The notes beneath the pieces were generated by a model. That model was not told where the DNA came from, made no database searches, and was given only the letters and a program-made list of their open reading frames with translations. From positions 215,159-279,158 of the forward strand of contig JAGWAR010000001.1 of assembly GCA_021296325.1 (NCBI GenBank): DNA of 64,000 bases. The letters are read 5' to 3'. This DNA is from Alphaproteobacteria bacterium (lineage in GTDB: Bacteria > Pseudomonadota > Alphaproteobacteria > GCA-2746255). Shown here one piece after another: positions 2,890-14,900 of this stretch (the stretch's first letter is position 1; each line of letters opens with the position of its first letter). Made by a program: the position numbers and the translations under genes.

Positions 2890-3027
2890 GAAGAAGGCCG
2901 GCAACCGCCCGGGAGCGGCCGAAGGCCGGCGCGGCGACCGCCCTCTTTCGGGTTTTTCCGCCTCTCCTTGATCCGGATCGCAAGGCCCGCCATGATCGAC
3001 GGCGAAAACGGTGGGAGGAGGGTTTCA

Positions 3028-5403
3028 GTGGCGGCAAAGTCGATCGACGGCAAGGCGTGCTGCTTCCCCAGTTTCAAGATCGGCAAAGACACGGAAGGTG
3101 ACGTCTTTAAGCTTTCCAGTCACCTGCGCGCGCGGGAAGCCATCGAGCTTAGCTTGTCCACGAACGATTCCGGCTTCAACGCTTTCGTCATCGGCGCCGA
3201 TCGCAGTGGCCGCATGTCGGCGACGATTCCTTTCCTCAAGGACTTCGTGGCCGGTCGGCCGACGCCGGACGACTGGATCTATCTGAACAATTTTCGAAAG
3301 CCCGAACGGCCAAAGCCCTATCGTTTGTCGGCCGGAGTCGGGCGGACGTTCCGCAACCGGATGAACGCATTGCTGCCGCAATTGCGCGACGCCCTTTCGA
3401 CGGCGTTCGGCAGTGAAGAATACGAAGCGGAAGCGAACAAACGGCGCAACCAGGTCGGACAGGAAATTTCCAAGCTGGTTGAAGTCCTTCGGGAAGACGC
3501 CAAGCAGGCCGGCCTCACCATCATACAAACCCCTCAAGGCATGGCCGTCGTTGCCCTGGATGCAGCCGGCGAACCGCTGGCGATCGAATCCATTCCGGAG
3601 GACAAGCGTCAGGCGCTGCGCGATGCGGGGGACCGCATCAGCGAGCAGTTACAGGGGATCAACCGCGAAGCGGCGCGTTTGAAACGCGTGCTGGAAGACG
3701 AGCTTCGCGAATTCAACCGCAAGATCGGGGATAACGCCATCAGCGGCATTCTGGACGATCTGGTCGGCCAGTTCTCGGACTATCCCGATCTTGCCCAATG
3801 GCTCGTCGAGATGCGCGGTGATGTGCTCGACAACCTCGATCTTTTCCGCGTTCCGCCACCGGATGGCTTGCCGCCCGGCACGCTGCCGCCGGAACAGCGC
3901 TACGCGGTGAACCTGCTTGTCGACAATGGGGATTCGAAAGGGCCGGCCGTCCTGCTGGAGCCAAACCCCTCTTATGAAAACCTGTTTGGCCAGATCGAAT
4001 ACCGCCCGGTTCCCGGCGGCATCGTCGAGACGGATTTGACCCTGATTCGCGCCGGGGCGCTGCACCGGGCAAATGGCGGCGTTCTGGTCCTTCGCGCCGA
4101 GTCGCTGGCACGGCATGCCTATGCCTGGGACCTGCTAAAAGGGGCACTTCGCGACCGGGAAATCCGCATTGAGGAATTGCACCGGATGGGGGCGCTTCCC
4201 ATCGCCGCCGCACCGAAGCCAGAACCAATCCCGCTTTCCGTTCGCGTCATCATCGTTGGCGCGCCCTTCTGGTATCACGCCTATTCCTACGACCCCGACC
4301 TTCGGACCTATTTCAAGATCAAGGCGGACATCGATCCGGACATGGACGCAACACCGGAAAACCTGGCCGGTTACGTCGGCCTGATTCGGAAAATGGCGGC
4401 GAATCTGGACGGCGCCACCTGCGAGGACGATACCCTTCGCCTGTTGCTTGGCCTCGCTTCGCGCTGGGCCGGCAACCGGGAGAAGCTTAGTTCCCAATAC
4501 GAGAACGTCCAGGACATGCTGGCCGAGGCCATTCAGGTCAACAAGCAATCCGGCCGGCGGGTCGTTACGAAGAATGACATTCTTGCCGTGATTCAACGCA
4601 AGCGCCGCCGCAATGCCCGGGTTGAAGACCGGATGCAGGAAAACATCGCCAAGGGACTCCTGATGATCGACACGGCCGGCGAGGCGGTCGGTCAGGTCAA
4701 CGCGCTTTCCGTGCTCGACCTTGGCGATCACGCCTTCGGGGTGCCGTCGCGGATCACCGCGCGGGCGTCCGCCGGGCGAAGCGGCGTCATCAACATCGAA
4801 CGCGAAGTCGAGCTTGGCGGCCCAATCCAGCAAAAGGGCGCCATGGTGTTGCAGGGCTATCTCACCGGCCGTTTTGCAAAGCAATTCCCGCTTTCCTTCA
4901 ACTGCTCGATTACCTTCGAGCAGAACTATGGCGGCGTCGAAGGGGACAGCGCTTCGCTTGCCGAACTTCTGGCCATCCTTTCCGATCTTTCTGGCGTGAA
5001 GTTGCGTCAGGACCTGGCGATCACCGGCTCCGTCAACCAGCATGGCTTCGCCCAGGCCATCGGCGGCGTGCACCACAAGATCGAAGGATTTTACCGTGCG
5101 TGCGTCGAAGGGAGCGGGCTTACCGGCAACCAGGGTGTTGTCATCCCGGCGGCGAACGAGCCGCACCTTCTCCTTCGTGATGAAGTCACCGAAGCGATCG
5201 AGAAGAAGAAGTTTCATCTGTGGAGCGTGAAGACGATCGAGGAAGCGATCGAGCTTTTCACCGGCGTCCCGGCCGGCACGCCCGACGGCAAGGGGAACTA
5301 TCCGCCGGATACGGTCTTCGGCAAGGTCATGACCCAGCTCAAAGCCTTCGACCGCACGCTCTCGGCCCGCGCCGTCGGTGCGGCGAACCGGGACACGCAG
5401 TAA
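3028..5403 (+). CDS. Lon-family (LonB/YcbZ-like) ATP-dependent protease
   Basis: A cytosolic Lon-type protease lacking the N-terminal LAN domain of classical Lon. From the GTG at 3028, preceded by GGGAGGAGGG six bases upstream, it has 791 residues; the frame is open to 2968 but has no comparable ribosome site. The AAA_32-type ATPase has a degenerate Walker A (GADRSGRMSAT, residues 56-66) where arginine replaces the usual lysine. A helical insert follows, and then the protease domain. The catalytic Ser641 (GDSAS) and Lys684 (VHHKIEGF) are 43 residues apart, the same spacing as in E. coli Lon. Unfolded-protein turnover is the family role; ATPase activity is uncertain given the altered loop. Confidence 0.88.
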   Translation: MAAKSIDGKACCFPSFKIGKDTEGDVFKLSSHLRAREAIELSLSTNDSGFNAFVIGADRSGRMSATIPFLKDFVAGRPTPDDWIYLNNFRKPERPKPYRLSAGVGRTFRNRMNALLPQLRDALSTAFGSEEYEAEANKRRNQVGQEISKLVEVLREDAKQAGLTIIQTPQGMAVVALDAAGEPLAIESIPEDKRQALRDAGDRISEQLQGINREAARLKRVLEDELREFNRKIGDNAISGILDDLVGQFSDYPDLAQWLVEMRGDVLDNLDLFRVPPPDGLPPGTLPPEQRYAVNLLVDNGDSKGPAVLLEPNPSYENLFGQIEYRPVPGGIVETDLTLIRAGALHRANGGVLVLRAESLARHAYAWDLLKGALRDREIRIEELHRMGALPIAAAPKPEPIPLSVRVIIVGAPFWYHAYSYDPDLRTYFKIKADIDPDMDATPENLAGYVGLIRKMAANLDGATCEDDTLRLLLGLASRWAGNREKLSSQYENVQDMLAEAIQVNKQSGRRVVTKNDILAVIQRKRRRNARVEDRMQENIAKGLLMIDTAGEAVGQVNALSVLDLGDHAFGVPSRITARASAGRSGVINIEREVELGGPIQQKGAMVLQGYLTGRFAKQFPLSFNCSITFEQNYGGVEGDSASLAELLAILSDLSGVKLRQDLAITGSVNQHGFAQAIGGVHHKIEGFYRACVEGSGLTGNQGVVIPAANEPHLLLRDEVTEAIEKKKFHLWSVKTIEEAIELFTGVPAGTPDGKGNYPPDTVFGKVMTQLKAFDRTLSARAVGAANRDTQ

Positions 5404-5485
5404 AACAGGGAAGTCCTTGTCGCATCGGCGGCACGCCCGGTGTCGACCGAGGATTGCGCGTGTTATGCTGCGGGTGAGGTGCCCC

Positions 5486-6496
5486 ATGTTGCATGCGCCT
5501 TTCCAGGGTCTTCGGCGGGCTTTGTTCGCCATACCGGTTGCCTTTCTTCTGATGGTGGGTGCCGATTTCCGGCCTGCCGCCGCCGAGGAAGCAAGCCCGC
5601 TTGATTCGATCGTCGGCATTCGCGCGCACATCCCCGTCGATGCGCGCACGGCGGCGCATCTTGGCACGGAGCGCATGGGCTCGGGCATCGTCATCGGCAA
5701 AGGCGGGCTTGTGCTTACCATCGGCTATCTCATTCTCGAGGCCGATCGGGTCGAGCTTGTGCTGCCGGGGGCCGAGCGGATTCCGGCCACGACAGTCGCT
5801 TTCGATTACGAAACCGGTTTCGGCCTCGTGCGGTCGCTGCTGCCGCTGAACCTGCCGCCTATTGCCTTCGGAGAATCTTCCGGGTTGAAGGTGAACGCGC
5901 CGGTGCTGGTTGCCGGGTACAGCAATCCGCAACGCTTTCTCGAGGCGAAAGTCGTTTCGCGCCGCAGCTTCGCGGGCTATTGGGAATATTTGCTGCCGGA
6001 TGCGATTTTCACATCACCGCCTCACCCGCAATTCGGCGGCGCCTCGCTTTTCGGGCCGGACGGGAAATTGCTTGGCATCGGTTCGCTGATCGTGGGCGGT
6101 GCGGCGTCCGAAGATTCGTACGAACCCGGCAACATGTTCGTTCCCATCGACGCCCTGAAGCCGATTCTGGAAACCCTGCTTGAACAGGGCCGAAGCGACC
6201 AGCGGGCGAAGCCCTGGATTGGCGTCTACAGCGAAGAATATCAGGGCCACGTCATCGTCACGGAGGTGGCGAAGGGCGGGCCGGCCGATCAGGCGGGAAT
6301 CAAGCCGAGTGATATCATCCTCTCGGTGGCGGGCGCACCGGTGAAAGGCCAGGCCGATTTCTATCGCAAGCTTTGGGCGCTGGGGGATGCCGGTACGGAA
6401 GTGCCGTTGACCCTGCTTGGCAAGCGCGGCATGCAGGAAGTCACCGTCACCTCCGCCGACCGTTACGACTGGCTGAAGCTCGACCCCAGCTATTAG
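5486..6496 (+). CDS. HtrA/DegP-like PDZ protein lacking the catalytic triad (predicted pseudoprotease)
   Basis: A 336-residue exported protein: signal peptide about 1-33 ending RPAAA, a trypsin-like domain about 38-230 and one PDZ domain about 243-325. ATG 5486 follows GGTGAGG by seven bases; the frame is open upstream but lacks a signal. Compared with HtrA motifs, TNAHV reads TIGYL (His to Tyr81), DPxTDLAV reads DYETGFGL (Asp to Gly111), and GNSGGP reads QFGGAS (Ser to Gly184). It is therefore predicted to have a protease fold without activity, probably acting as a periplasmic binding or scaffold protein. It lies 82 bases after the Lon-like gene on the same strand, and its stop overlaps the convergent amidase stop by four bases. 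Confidence 0.85.
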   Translation: MLHAPFQGLRRALFAIPVAFLLMVGADFRPAAAEEASPLDSIVGIRAHIPVDARTAAHLGTERMGSGIVIGKGGLVLTIGYLILEADRVELVLPGAERIPATTVAFDYETGFGLVRSLLPLNLPPIAFGESSGLKVNAPVLVAGYSNPQRFLEAKVVSRRSFAGYWEYLLPDAIFTSPPHPQFGGASLFGPDGKLLGIGSLIVGGAASEDSYEPGNMFVPIDALKPILETLLEQGRSDQRAKPWIGVYSEEYQGHVIVTEVAKGGPADQAGIKPSDIILSVAGAPVKGQADFYRKLWALGDAGTEVPLTLLGKRGMQEVTVTSADRYDWLKLDPSY

Positions 6497-8016
6497 CGTT
6501 TCTTCCAGTCCCCGGTTGCGGCGAAGGCATCGGCCGCGCGGATCAGCGTCGCCTCGTCGAAATGCTTGCCGACCAGCATCAACCCGATCGGAAGACCCTT
6601 GACCATGCCGCAGGGCACCGTGAAGGCGGGGTTTCCGGCCACGTCGATGGGGCAGGTGTTCTGCTGCATGTTAAGCGCTAGCCGGATCACTTCCTCGCGT
6701 GAGGCATCCGGCGGCGGCAGTTTCGTCGCCGGGAAGGGGATCGTCGGCATGGCAATAACGTCGTATTTTTCCAGCACGTCGTCATAGGCCTTGCGCACGA
6801 CGGGTTTCAGGTTCTGGCCCTTGGCGTGGTAGCGGCCGTGGTAATGACGATTCAAATACTCACCGAGCAGCAACACCAGCTTGCAGGTTTCCGAAAGATC
6901 GTCGGGACGCGAGCGCCAGCCATGGGCAAAGGCGTCGATCAGTGACGTTGCGTAATAACCGTTCCAGTTGTTGCCGAGCGCGTTGCCCTTGATCATCATC
7001 TCGGCCGCGCCTTCCGTGATGATGGCGCCCCAGATGTGGGGCGCGTCCAGGTGCATCGGGATCGAGACGTCTTCGACGCTGGCCCCTTCGCGGCCTAGGG
7101 TATCGATCGCGGCGCGCACCTTGCGGTCCGTCTCGGAGTCACTGTCCGGATGGCCAAAGCCTTCCTTTAGGACCGCGATCTTCAAGCCCTTCACGCCCTT
7201 GCCAAGCGCGCCCATGTAATCGCCGGTGACGGCGATCGTCGTTCTGGGATCCAAAGGGTCGCGCCCGGCAATGGCCGTCAGTAACCGGGCGACGTTTTCC
7301 GGGCTTGAGCAGATCGGCCCGCAATGATCCAGCGCGTAAGCTATCGGCATGGCGCCGGTCAGCGGCACCAGCCCCCAGGTCGGTTTCAACCCATAGGCCC
7401 CGCACCAGCAGGAAGGCGTTCGGATAGAGCCGCCCTGGTCGCCGCCAAGGGTCATTTCGACGTCGCCGGCGGCGATCAGCGCGGCGCTGCCGCTGGACGA
7501 GCCGCCGGCCGAATGTTCCGGATTGTGGGGATTGCGGATGGGGCCGGTGGCGCAGGTGTGGCTTCCGGCCGAGAAACAGAGGTCTTCGCAGGCGGCCTTG
7601 CCGGCGATGACGCCGCCATGGTCGAGGATGCGGGTGACGACGGTCGCGTCCACGTCCGGCACATAGCCTTCCAGGAGGCGCGAGCCGTTCATCATCGGCA
7701 CGCCGGCGACGCAGATATTGTCCTTGATGGCGATGCGCTTGCCTTGAAGGATGCCGTCGGACGCGCCCTTGATCTCGGTCCTCCAGTACCAGGCGTTGAA
7801 GGGGTTTTCGTCCGGGTTCGGGCGGTAGCCGGGCGTGCGGGGGTATTTGACCTGCGGGGTCGGCTCGGAGAGTTCATCAACCCTGGCGTAGGAACCGACG
7901 AACCCGCCGATGATCTGCTGGAACGACTCGGCATCGGCGACGCTGAAACTAAGCCCGTAACTGTCGGCGATCTCGAAGATCTGCTCGACGGTTGGCGGCC
8001 GCACGGAAATGGTCAT
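6493..8016 (-). CDS. Amidase of the nitrile-hydratase-associated type (amidase signature family)
   Basis: Hydrolyses an amide to the acid and ammonia. The 507-residue enzyme carries the amidase-signature triad: Lys98 (RIAIKDN), cis-Ser173 (AGGSSSGS) and nucleophile Ser197 (GGDQGGSIRTPS). The 75- and 24-residue spacings match the family. An N-terminal helical region of about 90 residues and the PMMNGSR and EDLCFSAGS segments are typical of the Rhodococcus amidase linked to nitrile hydratase. ATG 8016 follows an exceptionally strong GGGGGGAGG; codons upstream are not needed. It is divergent from the nitrile hydratase operon 115 bases away, so it is inferred to take the amide made by that enzyme. 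Confidence 0.92.
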   Translation of the reverse strand: MTISVRPPTVEQIFEIADSYGLSFSVADAESFQQIIGGFVGSYARVDELSEPTPQVKYPRTPGYRPNPDENPFNAWYWRTEIKGASDGILQGKRIAIKDNICVAGVPMMNGSRLLEGYVPDVDATVVTRILDHGGVIAGKAACEDLCFSAGSHTCATGPIRNPHNPEHSAGGSSSGSAALIAAGDVEMTLGGDQGGSIRTPSCWCGAYGLKPTWGLVPLTGAMPIAYALDHCGPICSSPENVARLLTAIAGRDPLDPRTTIAVTGDYMGALGKGVKGLKIAVLKEGFGHPDSDSETDRKVRAAIDTLGREGASVEDVSIPMHLDAPHIWGAIITEGAAEMMIKGNALGNNWNGYYATSLIDAFAHGWRSRPDDLSETCKLVLLLGEYLNRHYHGRYHAKGQNLKPVVRKAYDDVLEKYDVIAMPTIPFPATKLPPPDASREEVIRLALNMQQNTCPIDVAGNPAFTVPCGMVKGLPIGLMLVGKHFDEATLIRAADAFAATGDWKKR

Positions 8017-8052
8017 TGGAACCTCCCCCCGCTTTTCCTTCGGAGCCCGACC

Positions 8053-8082
8053 TTGACTCCTTTTCTTATTCCTTAACACTAT
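8053..8082 (+). promoter_or_regulatory. Possible promoter of the nitrile hydratase operon
   Basis: TTGACT at 8053-8058 is followed, after 17-18 bases, by ACACTAT at 8076-8082, a weak -10 match. A second TACAAT-like hexamer lies at 8101-8106. The 115-base gap between the divergent amidase and hydratase genes must hold both promoters, but no clear operator palindrome was seen. Confidence 0.3.
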
Positions 8083-8131
8083 TGGATCGGCGGAGAGGCG
8101 TACAATCCTTTCCGGATAAAGGGGGGAAGCG

Positions 8132-8746
8132 ATGGGCGATCATGACCACACGGCGCCGCTGCCGGATGTCGTCCTTCGCGTGAAAACGCTGGAGTCCCTG
8201 CTGGTCGAGAAGAAGCTTGTCGACCCAGAAGCCCTCGATGCGCTGATCGATCTTTACGAAAACCAGATCGGGCCGAAGAACGGGGCGCGCGTCGTCGCGC
8301 GGGCCTGGGTGGACCCCGAATTCAAGGCGTGGCTGTTGAAGGACGCGACAGGGGCCGTCGCCTCTTTCGGGTTCGCCAGCGACAAGGGCAAGACGCTGGT
8401 TGCCGTCGAAAACACGCCGAAGGTGCACAACCTTGTCGTCTGCACGCTTTGTTCCTGCTACCCCTGGGCGACGCTTGGTCTGCCGCCGGTCTGGTACAAA
8501 TCCGCCCCCTATCGCGCCCGAGCCGCAAAGGAACCGCGCAGCGTACTCCACGAATTCGGCACCGAATTGGACGACGACGTCGAAATCCGGATCTGGGATA
8601 GCAACGCCGAGGTGCGTTACTTCGTGCTGCCCGAGCGCCCCGAAGGCACGGAGGGCCTGTCGGAAGAAGAGCTGGTGGAACTTGTGACGCGGGATGCGAT
8701 GCTCGGCGTTTCGAAGGTGAGCGCACCGAAAGGCAGGGATGCATGA
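8132..8746 (+). CDS. nthA: Cobalt-type nitrile hydratase alpha subunit
   Basis: Metal-carrying subunit of nitrile hydratase, which hydrates nitriles to amides in the cytosol. The 204-residue length is normal. The claw motif is C104-T-L-C107-S-C109 followed by YPW; threonine after the first cysteine indicates the Co(III) type rather than the Fe type, and Cys107 and Cys109 would be the oxidised ligands. [15 protein letters not shown] and a late [15 protein letters not shown] segment are family hallmarks. AAGGGGGGAAGCG precedes the ATG. It overlaps the next gene by ATGA. The gamma subunit of thiocyanate hydrolase is the main alternative because the beta part is split, but the adjacent amidase favours a nitrile substrate. 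Confidence 0.93.
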
Positions 8747-9057
8747 GTGGCGTTCACGACCTGGCCGGGCGTCCCGGCTTTGGGCCCGTCGTTCGGGAAG
8801 CGGCCGAACCTGTCTTTCACGAGGAATGGGAGCGGCGCATGTTCGCGCTGATGGTGGCGACCTTCGCCGGCGGCGAATTCAATCTGGACGAGTTTCGTTA
8901 CGCGATCGAGCGGATGGAACCGAAGGAATACCTTGAAGGAAGCTATTACGAGCACTGGCTCTTCGCCGTCGAACAGTTGCTGATCGAAAAAGGATTGATC
9001 TCGGAAGCGGAACTTCGCGTGATGCGCGAAAGGATCGAAAAAAGGAAAAGTCCATGA
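8743..9057 (+). CDS. Nitrile hydratase beta subunit, N-terminal half as a separate protein
   Basis: A 104-residue protein matching the N-terminal half of nitrile hydratase beta. It opens with a [16 protein letters not shown] signature and continues with [27 protein letters not shown] and [17 protein letters not shown]. The arginine in EFRYAIER corresponds to the beta arginine that contacts the oxidised cysteine claw. The protein stops after KRKSP, where the normal beta subunit runs on. Both ends are ATGA overlaps, so it is translationally coupled to alpha and to the C-terminal half. Similar splits are known in thiocyanate hydrolase and in three-subunit nitrile hydratases. Confidence 0.9.
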
Positions 9058-9407
9058 CGGTCCTGAAGGCAAAGGACGTCGAGCGCGTCGTGAAGTTGAG
9101 CGGTTCGGGCCGGATCGAAAAGGACGTGCCACCAAAATTCAAGCCGGGGGACCGGATCGTCGCCCGCAATTTCGAGTCGAAGGGGCACACGCGCCTTCCC
9201 CGTTACGTGCGCGGCAAGCGGGGCGTCGTCGAACGCGACCACGGGGTCTACGTCTTTCCGGACACGAACGCGCTGGGCGGGCCTCAAAATCCGCAACACG
9301 TTTACAACGTGCGTTTCGATTTCAGGGAAATCTGGGGAGAAGACGCCGAGGCGAACGCCGTCCTTCACATCGACCTTTGGGACGACTACATGGAGCCGGC
9401 CGAATGA
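9054..9407 (+). CDS. Nitrile hydratase beta subunit, C-terminal half as a separate protein
   Basis: A 117-residue protein equal to the C-terminal beta-barrel half of nitrile hydratase beta. Markers are FKPGDRIVARN, GHTRLPRYVRGKRG (with the second claw-contacting arginine), a HGVYVFPDTNALG segment, NPQHVYNVRF and LWDDYMEPAE at the very end. Together with the preceding gene the total is 221 residues, the usual length of one beta subunit. The ATG overlaps the previous stop, and its own stop overlaps the activator start, so a balanced three-subunit complex is likely. Confidence 0.92.
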   Translation: MTVLKAKDVERVVKLSGSGRIEKDVPPKFKPGDRIVARNFESKGHTRLPRYVRGKRGVVERDHGVYVFPDTNALGGPQNPQHVYNVRFDFREIWGEDAEANAVLHIDLWDDYMEPAE

Positions 9408-9766
9408 CCCGCCTCGATGCACTCGTCCATCTGCCCCGCAACGAAGAAGGGCCCGTCTTCCGGGAACCCTGGGAGGCGTCGGCTTTCGCGATGGCCGTGA
9501 AGCTTTCCGAGGAGGGGCATTTCACCTGGAAGGAGTGGGCGGCCGTCTTGGCCGAAGAGATCGAGGCGGCCCAAAGGGATGGCGATCCCGACCTCGGTGA
9601 CACTTATTACCGGCACTGGTTGCGGGCGCTGGAACGGCTCGTCGCCGAAAAGGAGCTTGCGACGGAGGCCGAGCTTGTCACCCGCAAGCAGGAATGGGTG
9701 GAGGCGGTGGCGGCAACGCCCCACGGTCAGCCGATTGCGCTGCAACCCAAAGGAAAACAGCCCTGA
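9404..9766 (+). CDS. Nitrile hydratase activator / accessory protein (P14K-like)
   Basis: A 120-residue homologue of the nitrile hydratase beta N-terminal domain (EEGPVFREPWEASAFAMAV, FTWKEWAAVL, YYRHWLRALERLVAEK). This is characteristic of the small activators that deliver cobalt-loaded alpha subunit by subunit exchange in Co-type enzymes. ATG 9404 overlaps the preceding stop (ATGA); a longer frame to 9377 is not needed. CbtB begins four bases after its stop. The assignment to the activator family is firm; the exchange mechanism is inferred from characterised relatives. Confidence 0.88.
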   Translation: MTRLDALVHLPRNEEGPVFREPWEASAFAMAVKLSEEGHFTWKEWAAVLAEEIEAAQRDGDPDLGDTYYRHWLRALERLVAEKELATEAELVTRKQEWVEAVAATPHGQPIALQPKGKQP

Positions 9767-9770
9767 CGTC

Positions 9771-9959
9771 ATGACATTTGCGGGTACAAAAATGACGACC
9801 GGGTCGGCGCCGGCGGCGAGGCAAAAAATCCTTGGCCCCGCGCTGGTGGCCGCGTTGCTGGGCTTTTTCCTGTTGTTCGGCGCGGGCTTCGCGCCGTTGG
9901 CCGCCCTTCACAACGCGGCGCACGATACGCGCCACACCTTCAGCTTCCCCTGTCATTAG
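9771..9959 (+). CDS. cbtB: Cobalt transporter subunit CbtB
   Basis: A 62-residue protein with one transmembrane helix (about 20-46) and the diagnostic CbtB C-terminus HNAAHDTRHTFSFPCH, rich in histidine with a final cysteine and a likely metal-binding site. CbtB and CbtA are proposed cobalt importers, known mostly from genomics near cobalamin genes. Here it sits four bases after the nitrile hydratase activator, implying cobalt supply to that enzyme. ATG 9792 in the same frame is an alternative start; AAAGGA lies somewhat far upstream of 9771. Confidence 0.85.
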   Translation: MTFAGTKMTTGSAPAARQKILGPALVAALLGFFLLFGAGFAPLAALHNAAHDTRHTFSFPCH

Positions 9960-9968
9960 GGGGCATTC

Positions 9969-10625
9969 GTGTATTTCCGATTGGGCATAGTGGCGCTACT
10001 GGCCGGCATCATCGGCGGAAGCGTACTTTCCGCCGTGCAGCTTCCGTTCGTGACGCCCTTGATCTTGGAGGCGGAACGTTACGAAGAAACCGGAACGCAA
10101 AACCATGCCCATGAAGAAGGGGAAGCCAGCGCGCCTTCCCAGCGGACCTTTCTTACTCTTGCCGCAAATTTTCTGACCGCCATTGCCTTCGCGCTGCTTC
10201 TGAACGCAGGCCTCGGGCTTGCGGGGGAAAGCGGCTGGCGGGCCGGGCTGCTTTGGGGGCTCGGCGGCTTTACCGCCTTCAGCCTGGCGCCTTCCGTCGG
10301 GCTGCCACCGGAATTGCCGGGCACGCCCGCGGGCGATCTTTTCGAACGCCAAGTCTGGTGGTTCGGCACGGCGGCGGCCACGGGGGCCGCGCTTTTTCTT
10401 TTCGGGCGGTTCCGTAAACCCCTTTGGGTGCTGCTTGGCGTCGTCCTCGTGGCACTTCCCCATGCCATCGGCGCTCCGGATGCGCGCGGGCCGGGGACGG
10501 CGCCCGATAGCCTTGCCAGGACGTTCGTTGCCATGACGTTGTTTGCGAATCTGCTGTTCTGGGTCACCCTTGGCGTGGCGAGCGGTGTTCTGCAGGCGCG
10601 CTTCGTTCGGGGGGGGAAATGCTGA
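9969..10625 (+). CDS. cbtA: Cobalt transporter subunit CbtA
   Basis: A 218-residue inner-membrane protein with about five to six helices and a histidine/glutamate loop (NHAHEEGE, near residue 45) between helices one and two, as expected for CbtA. Conserved-looking segments are GGFTAFSLAPSVGLPPELPG, which follows helix 3, and FERQVWWFGTA. The start is a GTG nine bases after the cbtB stop, with AGGGGG just upstream. Its end overlaps the next acyl-CoA synthetase start. It is predicted to form the cobalt uptake system with CbtB; transport has been inferred for the family, not shown here. Confidence 0.88.
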   Translation: MYFRLGIVALLAGIIGGSVLSAVQLPFVTPLILEAERYEETGTQNHAHEEGEASAPSQRTFLTLAANFLTAIAFALLLNAGLGLAGESGWRAGLLWGLGGFTAFSLAPSVGLPPELPGTPAGDLFERQVWWFGTAAATGAALFLFGRFRKPLWVLLGVVLVALPHAIGAPDARGPGTAPDSLARTFVAMTLFANLLFWVTLGVASGVLQARFVRGGKC

Positions 10626-12226
10626 AACCCGGCAAAACCTACGAGGAAATCCGCAAGGCCTTCCGCTGGGAAGTGCCGGAAAATTACAACATCGGCGTCG
10701 ACGTTTGCGACCGTCAGCCGGCGGATACGCGCGCCCTTATCTATGAAGACGAAAGCGGCAAGGTCACCACCTACACTTTCGGCCAGCTACGCCGGCTTTC
10801 CAATCAATTCGCCAACGTGCTTCAAGGCCTCGGCGTGCAACGTGGCGAGCGCATCGGCATTCTGCTCGCCCAATCGCCCGAGGCGGCGATTGCCCATCTC
10901 GGCGTTTACAAGATGGGCGGCGTGGCCGTACCGCTTTTCACGCTGTTCGGGCCGGACGCCATCGAATACCGGCTTGCCAACAGCGATGCGCGTCTGGTCG
11001 TGACGGACAGCAAGAGTGTTGAAAAAGTGCACGCCATCCGCGACCGACTTCCCAACCTTGCCGCCGTGCTGGTGACGGATGGCAAGACGGAAGACACCGC
11101 TAATTTCTGGACGCTGCTGGAAAAGGCCTCGGGTGACTTCCATCCCGTTCCCACCCGCGCCGACGATCCGGCGCTCATCATCTACACTTCCGGCACGACG
11201 GGCCCGCCGAAAGGCGCTGTTCATGCGCATCGCGTTCTGCTTGGCCATCTGCCGGGGGTCGAATTTCCCCACAATCTTTTTCCGAAGGCGGGCGATCTTT
11301 TCTGGACGCCGGCGGATTGGGCGTGGATCGGAGGCTTGCTCGACGTGTTGTTGCCAAGCTGGCATCACGGCGTGCCGGTGCTGGCCCACCGCGCCAGCAA
11401 ATTCGATCCGGAACGCGCCTTTGCGTTGATGGTGCGGCACGACGTTCGCAACGCCTTTCTGCCGCCGACCGCGCTCAAGCTCATGCGTCAGGTGAAAGAA
11501 CCACAAACGCGACACGCCTTTCGTTTACGAAGCGTAGGCAGTGGCGGCGAAACCATGGGCGAGGCGTTGCTTGCCTGGGGAAAAGAAGTCTTCGGGCTTA
11601 CCATCAACGAATTTTACGGTCAGACGGAGGTCAATCTGGTGCTCGGCAATTGCACGGACGTCATGGCCGTGCGCGCGGGCTCGATGGGGCGCCCCGTGCC
11701 GGGGCACGACGTTGCGATTGTCGATGAAGAAGGAAGCCCCGTTGCCCTCGGCGTCGTCGGCCAGGTTGCCATTCGCCGTCCGGACCCGGTCATGTTCCTC
11801 GAATACTGGCGAAACCCGGAAGCGACGAAGAAGAAATTCATCGGCGATTGGTGTCTCACCGGCGATCTGGCGAGCCAAGATGACGACGGTTACTTCTGGT
11901 ACAAAAGCCGCGACGACGACCTGATTACGAGTTCCGGTTACCGCATCGGCCCCGGCGAAGTTGAGGAGTGCATTTTAAAACATCCGGCCGTCGCCCTGGT
12001 CGGCGTTGTCGGCGTGCCCGATCCGGTGCGAACCGAAATCATCAAGGCGTTCGTCGTGCCAAAATCGGAACACACGCCCAGCGATGCACTGGCCAAGGAA
12101 ATCCAGACCTTCGGGAAGACGCGTCTCGCCGCCCATGAATATCCGCGCGAGATTGCCTTCGTTGCGGAGCTTCCGATGACGGCGACCGGCAAGATCATGC
12201 GCCGCAAATTGCGGGAGCAGGGCTAA
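10619..12226 (+). CDS. Acyl-CoA synthetase (medium-chain/acetyl-CoA-synthetase-like)
   Basis: A 535-residue ATP-dependent acid:CoA ligase. Motifs are YTSGTTGPPKGAVHAH near residue 187, the FWTPADWAWIGG segment typical of acetyl/medium-chain ligases, FYGQTEVN, GDWCLTGDLASQDDDGYFWY, the SRDDDLITSSGYRIGPGEVE hinge and the catalytic lysine in MTATGKIMRRKLR. The ATG overlaps the cbtA stop (ATGCTGA), making it the seventh gene of the nitrile hydratase operon. It would convert the acid released by the amidase to acyl-CoA for catabolism. Exact chain length is unknown. Confidence 0.88.
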   Translation: MLKPGKTYEEIRKAFRWEVPENYNIGVDVCDRQPADTRALIYEDESGKVTTYTFGQLRRLSNQFANVLQGLGVQRGERIGILLAQSPEAAIAHLGVYKMGGVAVPLFTLFGPDAIEYRLANSDARLVVTDSKSVEKVHAIRDRLPNLAAVLVTDGKTEDTANFWTLLEKASGDFHPVPTRADDPALIIYTSGTTGPPKGAVHAHRVLLGHLPGVEFPHNLFPKAGDLFWTPADWAWIGGLLDVLLPSWHHGVPVLAHRASKFDPERAFALMVRHDVRNAFLPPTALKLMRQVKEPQTRHAFRLRSVGSGGETMGEALLAWGKEVFGLTINEFYGQTEVNLVLGNCTDVMAVRAGSMGRPVPGHDVAIVDEEGSPVALGVVGQVAIRRPDPVMFLEYWRNPEATKKKFIGDWCLTGDLASQDDDGYFWYKSRDDDLITSSGYRIGPGEVEECILKHPAVALVGVVGVPDPVRTEIIKAFVVPKSEHTPSDALAKEIQTFGKTRLAAHEYPREIAFVAELPMTATGKIMRRKLREQG

Positions 12227-12346
12227 GTCTTCCCCAGTGCGTCACGAATTCCGCCCAAAAGATGGCCGGTTGCCAAGTCGTGAAATTCTACCCAAGATAA
12301 CCCAGGCTTTGCCCTTGCTTCCCTAAGGGTTTCCTTGGAAGACTTG

Positions 12347-13663
12347 ATGGATCTAAGCATCGTTACGCAACTGGCAGAAACCGTTCGGGTCTGGCTTTTC
12401 GATCACGTCTTTGTTCTTGCGACCCTTGTTCAGGCGGGCGTCGGCTTGGCGATCTTTCTGCTCGCCTATTTCCTGGCCAGGCATATGCGGGCCTGGGTAG
12501 ACGCCCGCCTCGGCGAAGGCGTACTGGAAACCTGGCCCTCGCGCTTTACGGCGTCGCTTCGTCAACTGACCCTTCCGCTTGTCTGGCTTGGCCTGCAGGG
12601 CCTGGCGGTGTTGATCAGCATCGAAGCCGGCGTCGGTCACGGTCTGACAGACATCGTTCTCAAGCTTCTGGTGGCATGGGTCGTCATCCGGCTGGGCGTT
12701 CTCATGATTGCCCAAAAGGCGCTGGCGAACGTCCTGGCCTTTTTCGTCTGGGGCATCGTGGCCCTGGACGTGCTCGGCTTTTTGCAGCCGACGATCGTCT
12801 TGCTGGATGCTGCGGCGATCAACATTGGCCAGGATGTTCGCATCTCGCTGTTGATGATCGTCGAGGCGATGATCACGCTGGCCGTTCTGTTGTGGCTGGC
12901 TGCGTTCGTATCAAACCTTCTGGCGCGCCGCCTCCAGCGCGCCGAAGGCCTTACCCCCGCCATCCGGGTGCTGATCGGCAAGCTCTTGAAGATCCTTTTC
13001 TTCACGATCGCCATTCTGGCGGGACTCAACACGCTTGGCATCGATCTCACCGCGCTCACCGTGTTCGGCGGCGCCGTCGGTGTCGGCCTTGGCTTCGGCC
13101 TGCAGAAGGTGGTTTCGAATTTCGTAAGCGGCCTGATCCTGCTGCTGGACAAGTCCGTCAAGCCGGGCGACGTGATTGCCATCGGCAACACCTATGGCTG
13201 GATCAATTCGTTAAGCGGGCGTTATGTCTCGGTCCTGACGCGGGATGGCATCGAACATCTGATCCCGAACGAGGAACTGATCACCCAGCGGGTGGAGAAC
13301 TGGTCGCATTCGCACAATTTGGTGCGGCAACGCATTTCCATCGGCATTTCCTATCGTTCCGATCCGCACAAAGCGATCGAGTTGTGCCTCAAGGCGGTCA
13401 GGGAAACCGAGCGGGTGCTGGACGATCCGGCCCCGGTTTGCCTGTTGACCGGTTTCGGGGACAGTTCCGTCGATCTTGAGTTGCGTTTCTGGATTGGCGA
13501 TCCGACGCAGGGCATCGGAAACGTGAAAAGCGAGGTTCTGCTGCATGTATGGGACGAATTCAAGGAACACGGAATCGAAATTCCTTTCCCGCAACGGGAT
13601 CTTCATTTAAAGCCGGTCGAGGGTGCCATCCCGGTCGAAATCCGCGAGCCAAAGAAAAGCTAG
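12347..13663 (+). CDS. MscS-family mechanosensitive ion channel
   Basis: A 438-residue inner-membrane channel that releases solutes on osmotic downshock. Several N-terminal helices precede the pore-lining helix (GVGLGFGLQKVVSNFVSG) and the cytoplasmic beta domain (KPGDVIAIGNTYGWI, then LIPNEELITQRVENW), with a C-terminal alpha/beta region ending FPQRDLHLKP. The frame opens with TTG at 12335, but ATG 12347 just after GGAAGA is preferred. The 120 bases upstream hold only a weak CCCTT/AAGGG hairpin near 12310-12330. It is unlinked in function to the nitrile genes before it. Confidence 0.9.
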   Translation: MDLSIVTQLAETVRVWLFDHVFVLATLVQAGVGLAIFLLAYFLARHMRAWVDARLGEGVLETWPSRFTASLRQLTLPLVWLGLQGLAVLISIEAGVGHGLTDIVLKLLVAWVVIRLGVLMIAQKALANVLAFFVWGIVALDVLGFLQPTIVLLDAAAINIGQDVRISLLMIVEAMITLAVLLWLAAFVSNLLARRLQRAEGLTPAIRVLIGKLLKILFFTIAILAGLNTLGIDLTALTVFGGAVGVGLGFGLQKVVSNFVSGLILLLDKSVKPGDVIAIGNTYGWINSLSGRYVSVLTRDGIEHLIPNEELITQRVENWSHSHNLVRQRISIGISYRSDPHKAIELCLKAVRETERVLDDPAPVCLLTGFGDSSVDLELRFWIGDPTQGIGNVKSEVLLHVWDEFKEHGIEIPFPQRDLHLKPVEGAIPVEIREPKKS

Positions 13664-13680
13664 CCACAACCGTACCCGGC

Positions 13681-14598
13681 CTATTCCGGAAGCGGGATGA
13701 ACTCTTCCGCATCACCGGGAACGGTGCCAAAGCGGCCTTCCTTCCAGTCTTTTTTTGCCCGTTCGATGCGGGCTTCGGAGCTGGACACGAAATTCCACCA
13801 TAGAAAACGGGGACCGTCCGGCGCCGTGCCGCCGATGAGCAAGAGGCGGCTTGGCGCCTTGGCGCGGATGGAAAGCGCATCCCGGGTGCACAGTACGAGC
13901 AGGCCGTCATCGGCGAAATTTTCGCCGCCGATCTCGATCTCGCCCGAGGCAAGGTAAATGCCACGCTCCTCATTTTCGGCCGGAAAGATGAGGGTCGCGC
14001 CGCTCTCGAGGGAAACATCTGCGTAAAGCGTTTCGGACAAGGTCTTCACCGGCGAGGTCTTGCCGTAAAGCGAACCCAGAAGCAGACGCAGGCAAATGCC
14101 GTCTTCTTCGATGCGGGGCAGCGTCGCCTTCGGATGATGAAAAAAGCCGGGCGCCGTTTCTTCCATCGCCTTCGGCAGAGCGACCCAGGTCTGGATGCCG
14201 GAAAGCGGAGATGTTTTTTCCCGCGCTTCGGGGGTCGAGCGTTCGGAATGCACGATTCCCGACCCCGCCGTCATCCAGTTGATGTCGCCGGGGCGGATCA
14301 CCTGGGCCGAGCCTAGATTGTCGCGGTGCAGGAGTTCGCCCTCGAACAGATAGGTGACGGTGGCAAGGCCAATATGGGGATGGGGGCGAACGTCGATCGC
14401 CTGGCCGGGGCCGAGTTCGGCCGGGCCGGCCTGGTCGAAGAAGATAAAGGGGCCGACCGTTCGCCGCTTCGACGAGGGCAGCACGCGCCGGACCGTAAAC
14501 CCGCCGAGATCGCGGGGGCGGCCCCGGATCACCTGCTCAAGCCAGTCGCAGCCTTGCACCTCGCCCGCATTCGGTTCGGCCGAGGGCTGCCAGCTCAC
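13681..14598 (-). CDS. Pirin-family cupin protein
   Basis: A 305-residue bicupin. The N-terminal metal site is visible as HPHIGLATVTYLFEGE, HRDNLG and IVHSE, the last after PGDINWMTAGSG; these are the three histidines and glutamate of pirin/YhaK quercetin-dioxygenase-like proteins. The chosen start is a GTG at 14598, which overlaps the stop of the upstream ferritin gene (GTGA) and has AGGAAG nearby; the open frame extends to 14694 within that gene. Cellular role is unknown; redox sensing or flavonoid dioxygenation are family possibilities. Confidence 0.88.
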   Translation of the reverse strand: MSWQPSAEPNAGEVQGCDWLEQVIRGRPRDLGGFTVRRVLPSSKRRTVGPFIFFDQAGPAELGPGQAIDVRPHPHIGLATVTYLFEGELLHRDNLGSAQVIRPGDINWMTAGSGIVHSERSTPEAREKTSPLSGIQTWVALPKAMEETAPGFFHHPKATLPRIEEDGICLRLLLGSLYGKTSPVKTLSETLYADVSLESGATLIFPAENEERGIYLASGEIEIGGENFADDGLLVLCTRDALSIRAKAPSRLLLIGGTAPDGPRFLWWNFVSSSEARIERAKKDWKEGRFGTVPGDAEEFIPLPE

Positions 14599-14900
14599 GA
14601 AGTGGCTTCCTCTTCCAGGTGCGCGATCTCGCCTTCCGAGAAGAGGTAGGTCTTGAACTCCTTCTCGAAATGGGGACTGGCGCGCCTCAGCCATTCCAGT
14701 CCCATCGAGGCGTGCTCGATCTCTTCGCGCATGTTGTGGAGCAGGATGGCCTTCAACGCCGGATCGTCACAGTCGTCGGCCCGCTGGCGGTACCAGTCGA
14801 CGGCCTCCAGCTCCTCGATGACGGACTGGATTGCCTGGTGCAGGGCGATCGTCTCTTTCGTTAGCCGCTCGCGCGGGGCATGCAGGTCTTCGCTGGACAT
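14595..14900 (-). CDS. Encapsulated-ferritin-like (EncFtn-type) protein without visible shell-targeting tail
   Basis: A 101-residue two-helix ferritin-like protein strongly resembling the EncFtn cargo of encapsulins, for instance in the IEELEAVDWYRQRADD and REEIEHASMGLEWLRR segments. The expected ferroxidase ligands align as Glu30, Glu60 and His63. EncFtn dimers oxidise iron inside an encapsulin shell. Here the chain ends LFSEGEIAHLEEEATS, without the hydrophobic GSL-type targeting peptide, and no encapsulin gene follows; pirin does. AAAGGAGGAAGC precedes the ATG. It lies 25 bases after tRNA-Ser on the same strand, so co-transcription is likely. Confidence 0.82.
   Translation of the reverse strand: MSSEDLHAPRERLTKETIALHQAIQSVIEELEAVDWYRQRADDCDDPALKAILLHNMREEIEHASMGLEWLRRASPHFEKEFKTYLFSEGEIAHLEEEATS

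Follow-up and report, generated by a model that had tools for sequence, protein, structure and literature searches.

The window analysed here, a 64,000-nucleotide stretch of contig JAGWAR010000001.1 from an alphaproteobacterial genome, harbours an intact open reading frame for a 336-residue HtrA-like protein, whose coordinates and residues agree exactly with those of an earlier, sequence-only description of the locus (the first-pass annotation). The gene starts 82 bp after the stop codon of a gene for a LonB-like protease, which matches the close spacing behind a Lon-like gene that had been reported. The locus comprises the following features:

2968–5403, + strand: LonB-like protease (AAA_32, LonC_helical and Lon_C domains), listed as context and lying outside the system
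5486–6496, + strand: HtrA-like pseudoprotease gene, 336 aa (exact ORF; homologues 38–58% identical)
5486–5584, + strand: putative Sec signal peptide, approximately residues 1–33, ending in RPAAA (by hydropathy heuristic only)
5678–6079, + strand: Trypsin_2 (HtrA protease-fold) domain, residues 65–198 (Pfam, E 3e-12)
5726–5728, + strand: Tyr81 at the catalytic His position (Tyr in 88 and Phe in 1 of 89 homologues; His in 21/21 HtrAs)
5816–5818, + strand: Gly111 at the catalytic Asp position (Gly in 89/89 homologues; Asp in 21/21 HtrAs)
5969–5995, + strand: L3-loop region F162-A-G-Y-W-E-Y168-L-L170 (F162 for the activation-cluster Arg, L170 for the Gln of 'IQTD')
6035–6037, + strand: Gly184 at the catalytic Ser position (Gly 66, Ser 13, Ala 4, Gln 4 and Asn 2 of 89 homologues)
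6209–6226, + strand: PDZ carboxylate-binding loop K-P-W-I-G-V, residues 242–247, kept (P243, W244 and G246 in 89/89)
6215–6448, + strand: PDZ domain (PDZ_2), residues 244–321 (Pfam, E 3.5e-12)

Both domain matches exceed the Pfam cut-offs, and the protein possesses the chymotrypsin-like fold with a C-terminal PDZ domain that characterizes the S1C HtrA proteins. Its N-terminal hydrophobic segment, followed by AAA, has a Kyte-Doolittle mean of 2.74, a heuristic sign of a signal peptide, and the single-chain AlphaFold2 model (pLDDT 91.5, pTM 0.86) forms a helix at residues 7–23 of the same region, with low pLDDT there. Foldseek comparison of this model with the PDB returned DegP, DegQ, Deg1 and related HtrAs as top matches (E ~1e-20), with TM-scores of only ~0.5 and rmsd values of 6–10 over both domains, i.e. 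without a tight superposition, which may reflect a domain arrangement different from that of the solved HtrAs. All these matches were ordinary HtrAs, and no solved structure close to the present family was found in the PDB. In the alignment to DegP-like PDB chains, LTIGYLI corresponds to VTNNHVI, ETGFGLV to ESDLAVI and HPQFGGASL to NPGNSGGAL; at the motif level, the TNNHV, SDLAV and GNSGG of solved HtrAs are replaced by TIGYL, TGFGL and QFGGA, respectively. Because these motifs align, Tyr81, Gly111 and Gly184 can be assigned to the positions of the catalytic His, Asp and Ser, as the first-pass annotation had placed them, and the protein lacks the His-Asp-Ser triad of active S1C HtrAs. The fold motifs, signal peptide, PDZ domain and full-length frame described there were likewise recovered, as Pfam domains, an intact ORF and, heuristically, a hydrophobic N-terminus.

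The loss is fixed across the homologues. The His position is occupied by Tyr or Phe and the Asp position by Gly in all 89 homologues aligned, and Ser survives at position 184 in 13 of them, without His and Asp, whereas the 21 alphaproteobacterial HtrAs in the same alignment all keep His, Asp and Ser. Since the replacements at positions 81 and 111 recur in every one of the 89 homologues, chance or sequencing error is ruled out. No His, Lys or Cys column approaches invariance in the protease domain of these sequences, the best-conserved His being H180 (50/89), and for this reason a displaced triad or dyad is excluded; Ser200, present in 88/89, aligns to an ordinary Ser/Thr column of the HtrAs. 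An intact Ser-His-Asp elsewhere in the domain, which the first-pass annotation had named as contrary evidence, was thus not found, no His being conserved in the family. In the phylogenetic tree, the homologues form one side of a branch opposite the 21 HtrAs (SH-aLRT 100), for which the simplest reading would be a single loss of the triad before the family radiated. The dN/dS values (NG86) range from 0.09 to 0.22 in ten pairs of close homologues, indicating purifying selection; these pairs are relatives, since nothing closely related to the window's own copy turned up. The catalytic residues have thus been lost in a conserved manner and under purifying selection, and the family to which the gene belongs is a selected pseudoprotease family and not a product of decay, the loss of cutting being predicted from sequence. 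This agrees with the initial proposal, for which an alignment of orthologues and dN/dS had been suggested as checks: both support it, as do the single clade and the confident HtrA fold.

Comparison of columns that are conserved in both groups (89 family members and 21 HtrAs) but hold different residues revealed that the switched positions cluster at the old active site and the activation cluster, with the PDZ loop unchanged. From HtrAs to the family, the switches are N-to-I79, H-to-Y81, D-to-G111, A-to-G113, R-to-F162, F-to-Y168, Q-to-L170, N-to-G199, A-to-L201, G-to-N216 and F-to-M217, the last of which probably corresponds to Phe220 of DegS. In place of the activation-cluster residues of DegP (PMC11642142), Arg187 and Gln200, whose equivalents were assigned from motifs rather than from a structure, the family has Phe162 in 88/89 and Leu, Ile or Val170 in 89/89; the larger sample was picked by the motifs F[AT]G[YFS]WEY[LM] and GNM[FI][VI]P[ITV], and conservation at positions 162–169 and 215–224 is inflated to that extent. 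The triad columns fall outside both motifs, and nine members aligned by whole-protein similarity, i.e. not picked by motif, carry the same residues. The GNSG loop, which forms the oxyanion hole, is also lost, while the PDZ loop (R/K)-P-W-(L/I)-G is retained with invariant P243, W244 and G246. The site for cutting is thus gone, as is the relay for activating it, and the PDZ grip remains. The residues that pass a signal from the PDZ domain to the active site have been exchanged, as has the active site itself, and a sensor role of the DegS type is therefore unlikely, even though the PDZ carboxylate loop is kept. A shortened L3 loop was also considered and dropped, since the loop lengths are equal.

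When 59 genomes of the class were searched, close homologues (41–54% identity) turned up in eight other genomes, with a clear score gap between them (E ≤1e-66) and ordinary HtrAs (E ≥1e-18). The gene was missing from three same-genus genomes in this search, so members of its own genus can do without it. Public genomes scanned with a profile yielded at least 577 places, and the best 80, which were retained, belong to alpha-, beta-, gamma- and 'delta'-proteobacterial records. Of 385 alphaproteobacterial genomes drawn evenly from the class, 95 were carriers, many with two copies, and in an even draw of the phylum 35 of 398 genomes carried the gene, all but two of them from the same class; the family is mainly one of Alphaproteobacteria and sporadic elsewhere. 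Two streamlined, one-contig genomes of 1.2 Mb retain it (G100, 100% complete, and G374, 99%), and it also occurs in plasmid records of Rhizobium, Neorhizobium, Azospirillum, Phyllobacterium and Pararhizobium, where annotated copies are labelled 'S1C family serine protease' (RefSeq) or 'signal protein PDZ'. Judged by its residues, the database label 'serine protease' is probably wrong for the family. All 13 carriers tested, including the two 1.2-Mb genomes, also encode a canonical HtrA above the TIGR02037 cut-off. No entry in Pfam, NCBIfam or the PDB separates the family. The literature searched on HtrA pseudoproteases deals with MamO, plant Degs and reviews and not with this family, which may be noted elsewhere, as subscription papers lay mostly outside the search. 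A 2008 survey of 91 genomes listed 42 inactive homologues of serine proteases among five families, and the passages of it that were consulted hold no description of the present one (PMC2605481).

About 20–23 sequences have non-hydrophobic N-termini (e.g. MSDE..WEIP..QPKPEE..FDLD) and mostly the motif DAFTA or DGYTA. They group together and are nested among the exported members (SH-aLRT 91), which suggests that export was lost once, in this branch, if location follows the N-terminus. Since start codons were set by rule, single N-terminus cases may be wrong. In several genomes with two copies, one copy matches the query from approximately residue 10 and the other only from approximately residue 38. 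The AlphaFold2 model of a non-exported member (pLDDT 91.8, pTM 0.89) is as confident as that of the window protein. Two further members (L083 and L096) appear lipoprotein-like by the N-terminus heuristic.

The genomic surroundings of the gene vary. The LonB-like protein scores 108 bits against a curated LonB cut-off of 517, which makes it a divergent Lon type. The hint in the first-pass annotation that this neighbour matters did not hold, and a LonB partnership was rejected: no LonB was found beside the other family members, and two congeners carry LonB (71–74% identity) without the pseudoprotease gene, the stretch from this gene to ~14,600 being absent from them. The missing block of ~9.2 kb (5404–14600), replaced at the same site by other DNA after LonB, contains the pseudoprotease, amidase, nitrile hydratase, CbtBA, AMP ligase, MscS and pirin genes; MscS sits ~40 kb away in one of the two congeners. 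In a congener, the gene that follows LonB (L133:4607-5434) encodes, by motif only, an M48-type metalloprotease lipoprotein (HEVGH) in place of the pseudoprotease. Within the block, positions 6493–10625 hold a compact nitrile-degradation and cobalt-uptake set composed of an amidase, a nitrile hydratase alpha subunit, assigned to the cobalt type by its motif CTLCSC, and the cobalt transporter genes CbtB/CbtA; the nitrile hydratase beta subunit is split into ORFs 8743–9057 and 9054–9407, with an NHase_beta_N-like activator at 9377–9766. Among the best 80 of at least 577 loci, the genes seen repeatedly near the pseudoprotease are a divergent uvrD (17/80, with prmA in 12/80) and a CLC channel (9/80). 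In Rhodospirillales-like genomes (L033–L112), the exported pseudoprotease and uvrD are frequently oriented divergently, with prmA on the far side of uvrD. A functional link to uvrD or prmA was not inferred, as the orientation of the flanking genes is close to random. A MlaC-like gene follows the pseudoprotease on the same strand at four loci (L055, L069, L077 and L104), a possible link to envelope lipid transport that concerns this small group. No conserved operon partner was detected across the 80 loci, which makes it probable that the protein works by itself or with partners whose genes lie elsewhere.

Drawing on comparison and prediction for the fold, the triad loss, conservation, selection and the retention of the PDZ loop, we infer that the protein is an ancient selected pseudoprotease which serves as a non-catalytic, PDZ-based peptide-binding adaptor or chaperone, a role to which we assign a probability of roughly one half. 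The intact PDZ loop makes an adaptor or sensor of peptides plausible. As the comparisons indicate, the ancestor was an exported single-PDZ HtrA that lost its triad, oxyanion loop and allosteric activation cluster before the family radiated, after which selection held the rebuilt cleft fixed. In the periplasm, the PDZ domain may capture the exposed C-termini or unfolded segments of clients through its carboxylate-binding loop. A second segment or a ligand may be bound in the remodelled cleft (T78-I-G-Y81, E85, Y-D-x-x-T-G-F-G and F-A-G-Y-W-E-Y), so that clients would be held or presented uncut while one or more active HtrAs operate in the same cell. More tentatively, this widespread, undescribed family could constitute an envelope peptide-holding system of its own, one branch of which, having no signal peptide, would have become a cytoplasmic HtrA-derived chaperone or adaptor.

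Other readings of the same data appear less likely. The rebuilt cleft may have acquired a new function, with Tyr81, Glu85, Asp107, Trp166-Glu167-Tyr168 and Asn216 binding a small ligand, a metal or a piece of peptidoglycan, or catalysing a different reaction; invariant polar and aromatic residues do gather in the old active-site motifs and MamO was repurposed for transition-metal binding, yet the family has no conserved His or Cys for a metal and no pathway context, and its WEY and GNM conservation stems partly from motif-based sampling, which makes this option unlikely. Somewhat more doubtful is a regulatory role in which the pseudoprotease is built into the trimers of active HtrA (DegP), or caps them, and so modulates their activity. 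The canonical HtrA found in 13/13 tested carriers, even in the two 1.2-Mb genomes, and the non-catalytic activation of MamE by MamO (PMC4794232) are in line with such mixed oligomers, but a canonical HtrA is near-universal, and its co-occurrence is weak evidence. Moreover, the gene is unlinked to htrA except at one locus (L072), where an HtrA-like gene lies ~4 kb upstream, and the subclade without a signal peptide should not meet a periplasmic HtrA, a loss of export in this nested branch, if location follows the N-terminus, arguing against a function that depends only on that partner.

That the protein still cuts, through a rearranged catalytic centre, is highly improbable: the Ser retained at 184 in some members and the nearly constant Ser200 could be cited in its favour, but neither is accompanied by a conserved His, Lys or Cys, and Ser200 occupies an unremarkable column. 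Most remote is a pseudogene, an assembly error or a binning contaminant, a reading already refuted for the family. It could draw on the absence of the gene from the three same-genus genomes and on its location inside a variable 9-kb block; against it stand the intact frame, the same losses in hundreds of places and purifying selection among relatives. Contamination of the bin was likewise rejected, given that the flanking genes are 71–79% identical to those of congeners and the base composition matches.

About a quarter of the sampled alphaproteobacterial genomes, including rhizobia and azospirilla, carry one or two copies of a gene whose products are labelled serine proteases though predicted not to cut. 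With the triad and the allosteric relay lost and the PDZ grip kept, the family offers a natural experiment on the functions that an HtrA scaffold can have when it no longer cuts, which bears on the long-standing question of the chaperone role of DegP, and its carriers include tractable hosts in which simple knock-outs are feasible.

Among known systems, DegP, DegQ and DegS (HtrA, MEROPS S1C; TIGR02037/TIGR02038) are the best profile and fold matches of the window protein and share with it the chymotrypsin-like domain followed by PDZ, the signal peptide and the PDZ carboxylate loop. The family differs from them in having lost His, Asp and mostly Ser, with Phe and Leu in place of the activation-cluster Arg and Gln, and the window protein scores 70 bits against TIGR02037, for which the cut-off is 416. 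HtrA pseudoproteases as such are a known kind, represented by MamO and plant Degs (PMC3473262). MamO of Magnetospirillum, which is needed for MamE-dependent proteolysis and activates MamE non-catalytically (PMC4794232), is, like the present family, a proteobacterial HtrA-family pseudoprotease repurposed to a non-catalytic role. It differs in that its catalytic residues are properly placed, with Thr for Ser, a surface di-His binds metal and a TauE-like domain is present (PMC4794232), whereas the present family, compared with MamO by features, loses His and Asp, has a PDZ domain and lacks the di-His; no column of the 89 sequences holds a conserved His for a surface di-His or H-D metal motif of that type. 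AtDeg16 and the second domain of AtDeg7 are likewise HtrA domains with broken triads that are kept in genomes, the inactive domain of AtDeg7 serving trimerisation (PMC3473262). In the plant Degs, however, the losses concern single residues or internal domains and are scattered, while the family described here forms one clade with a fixed set of replacements.
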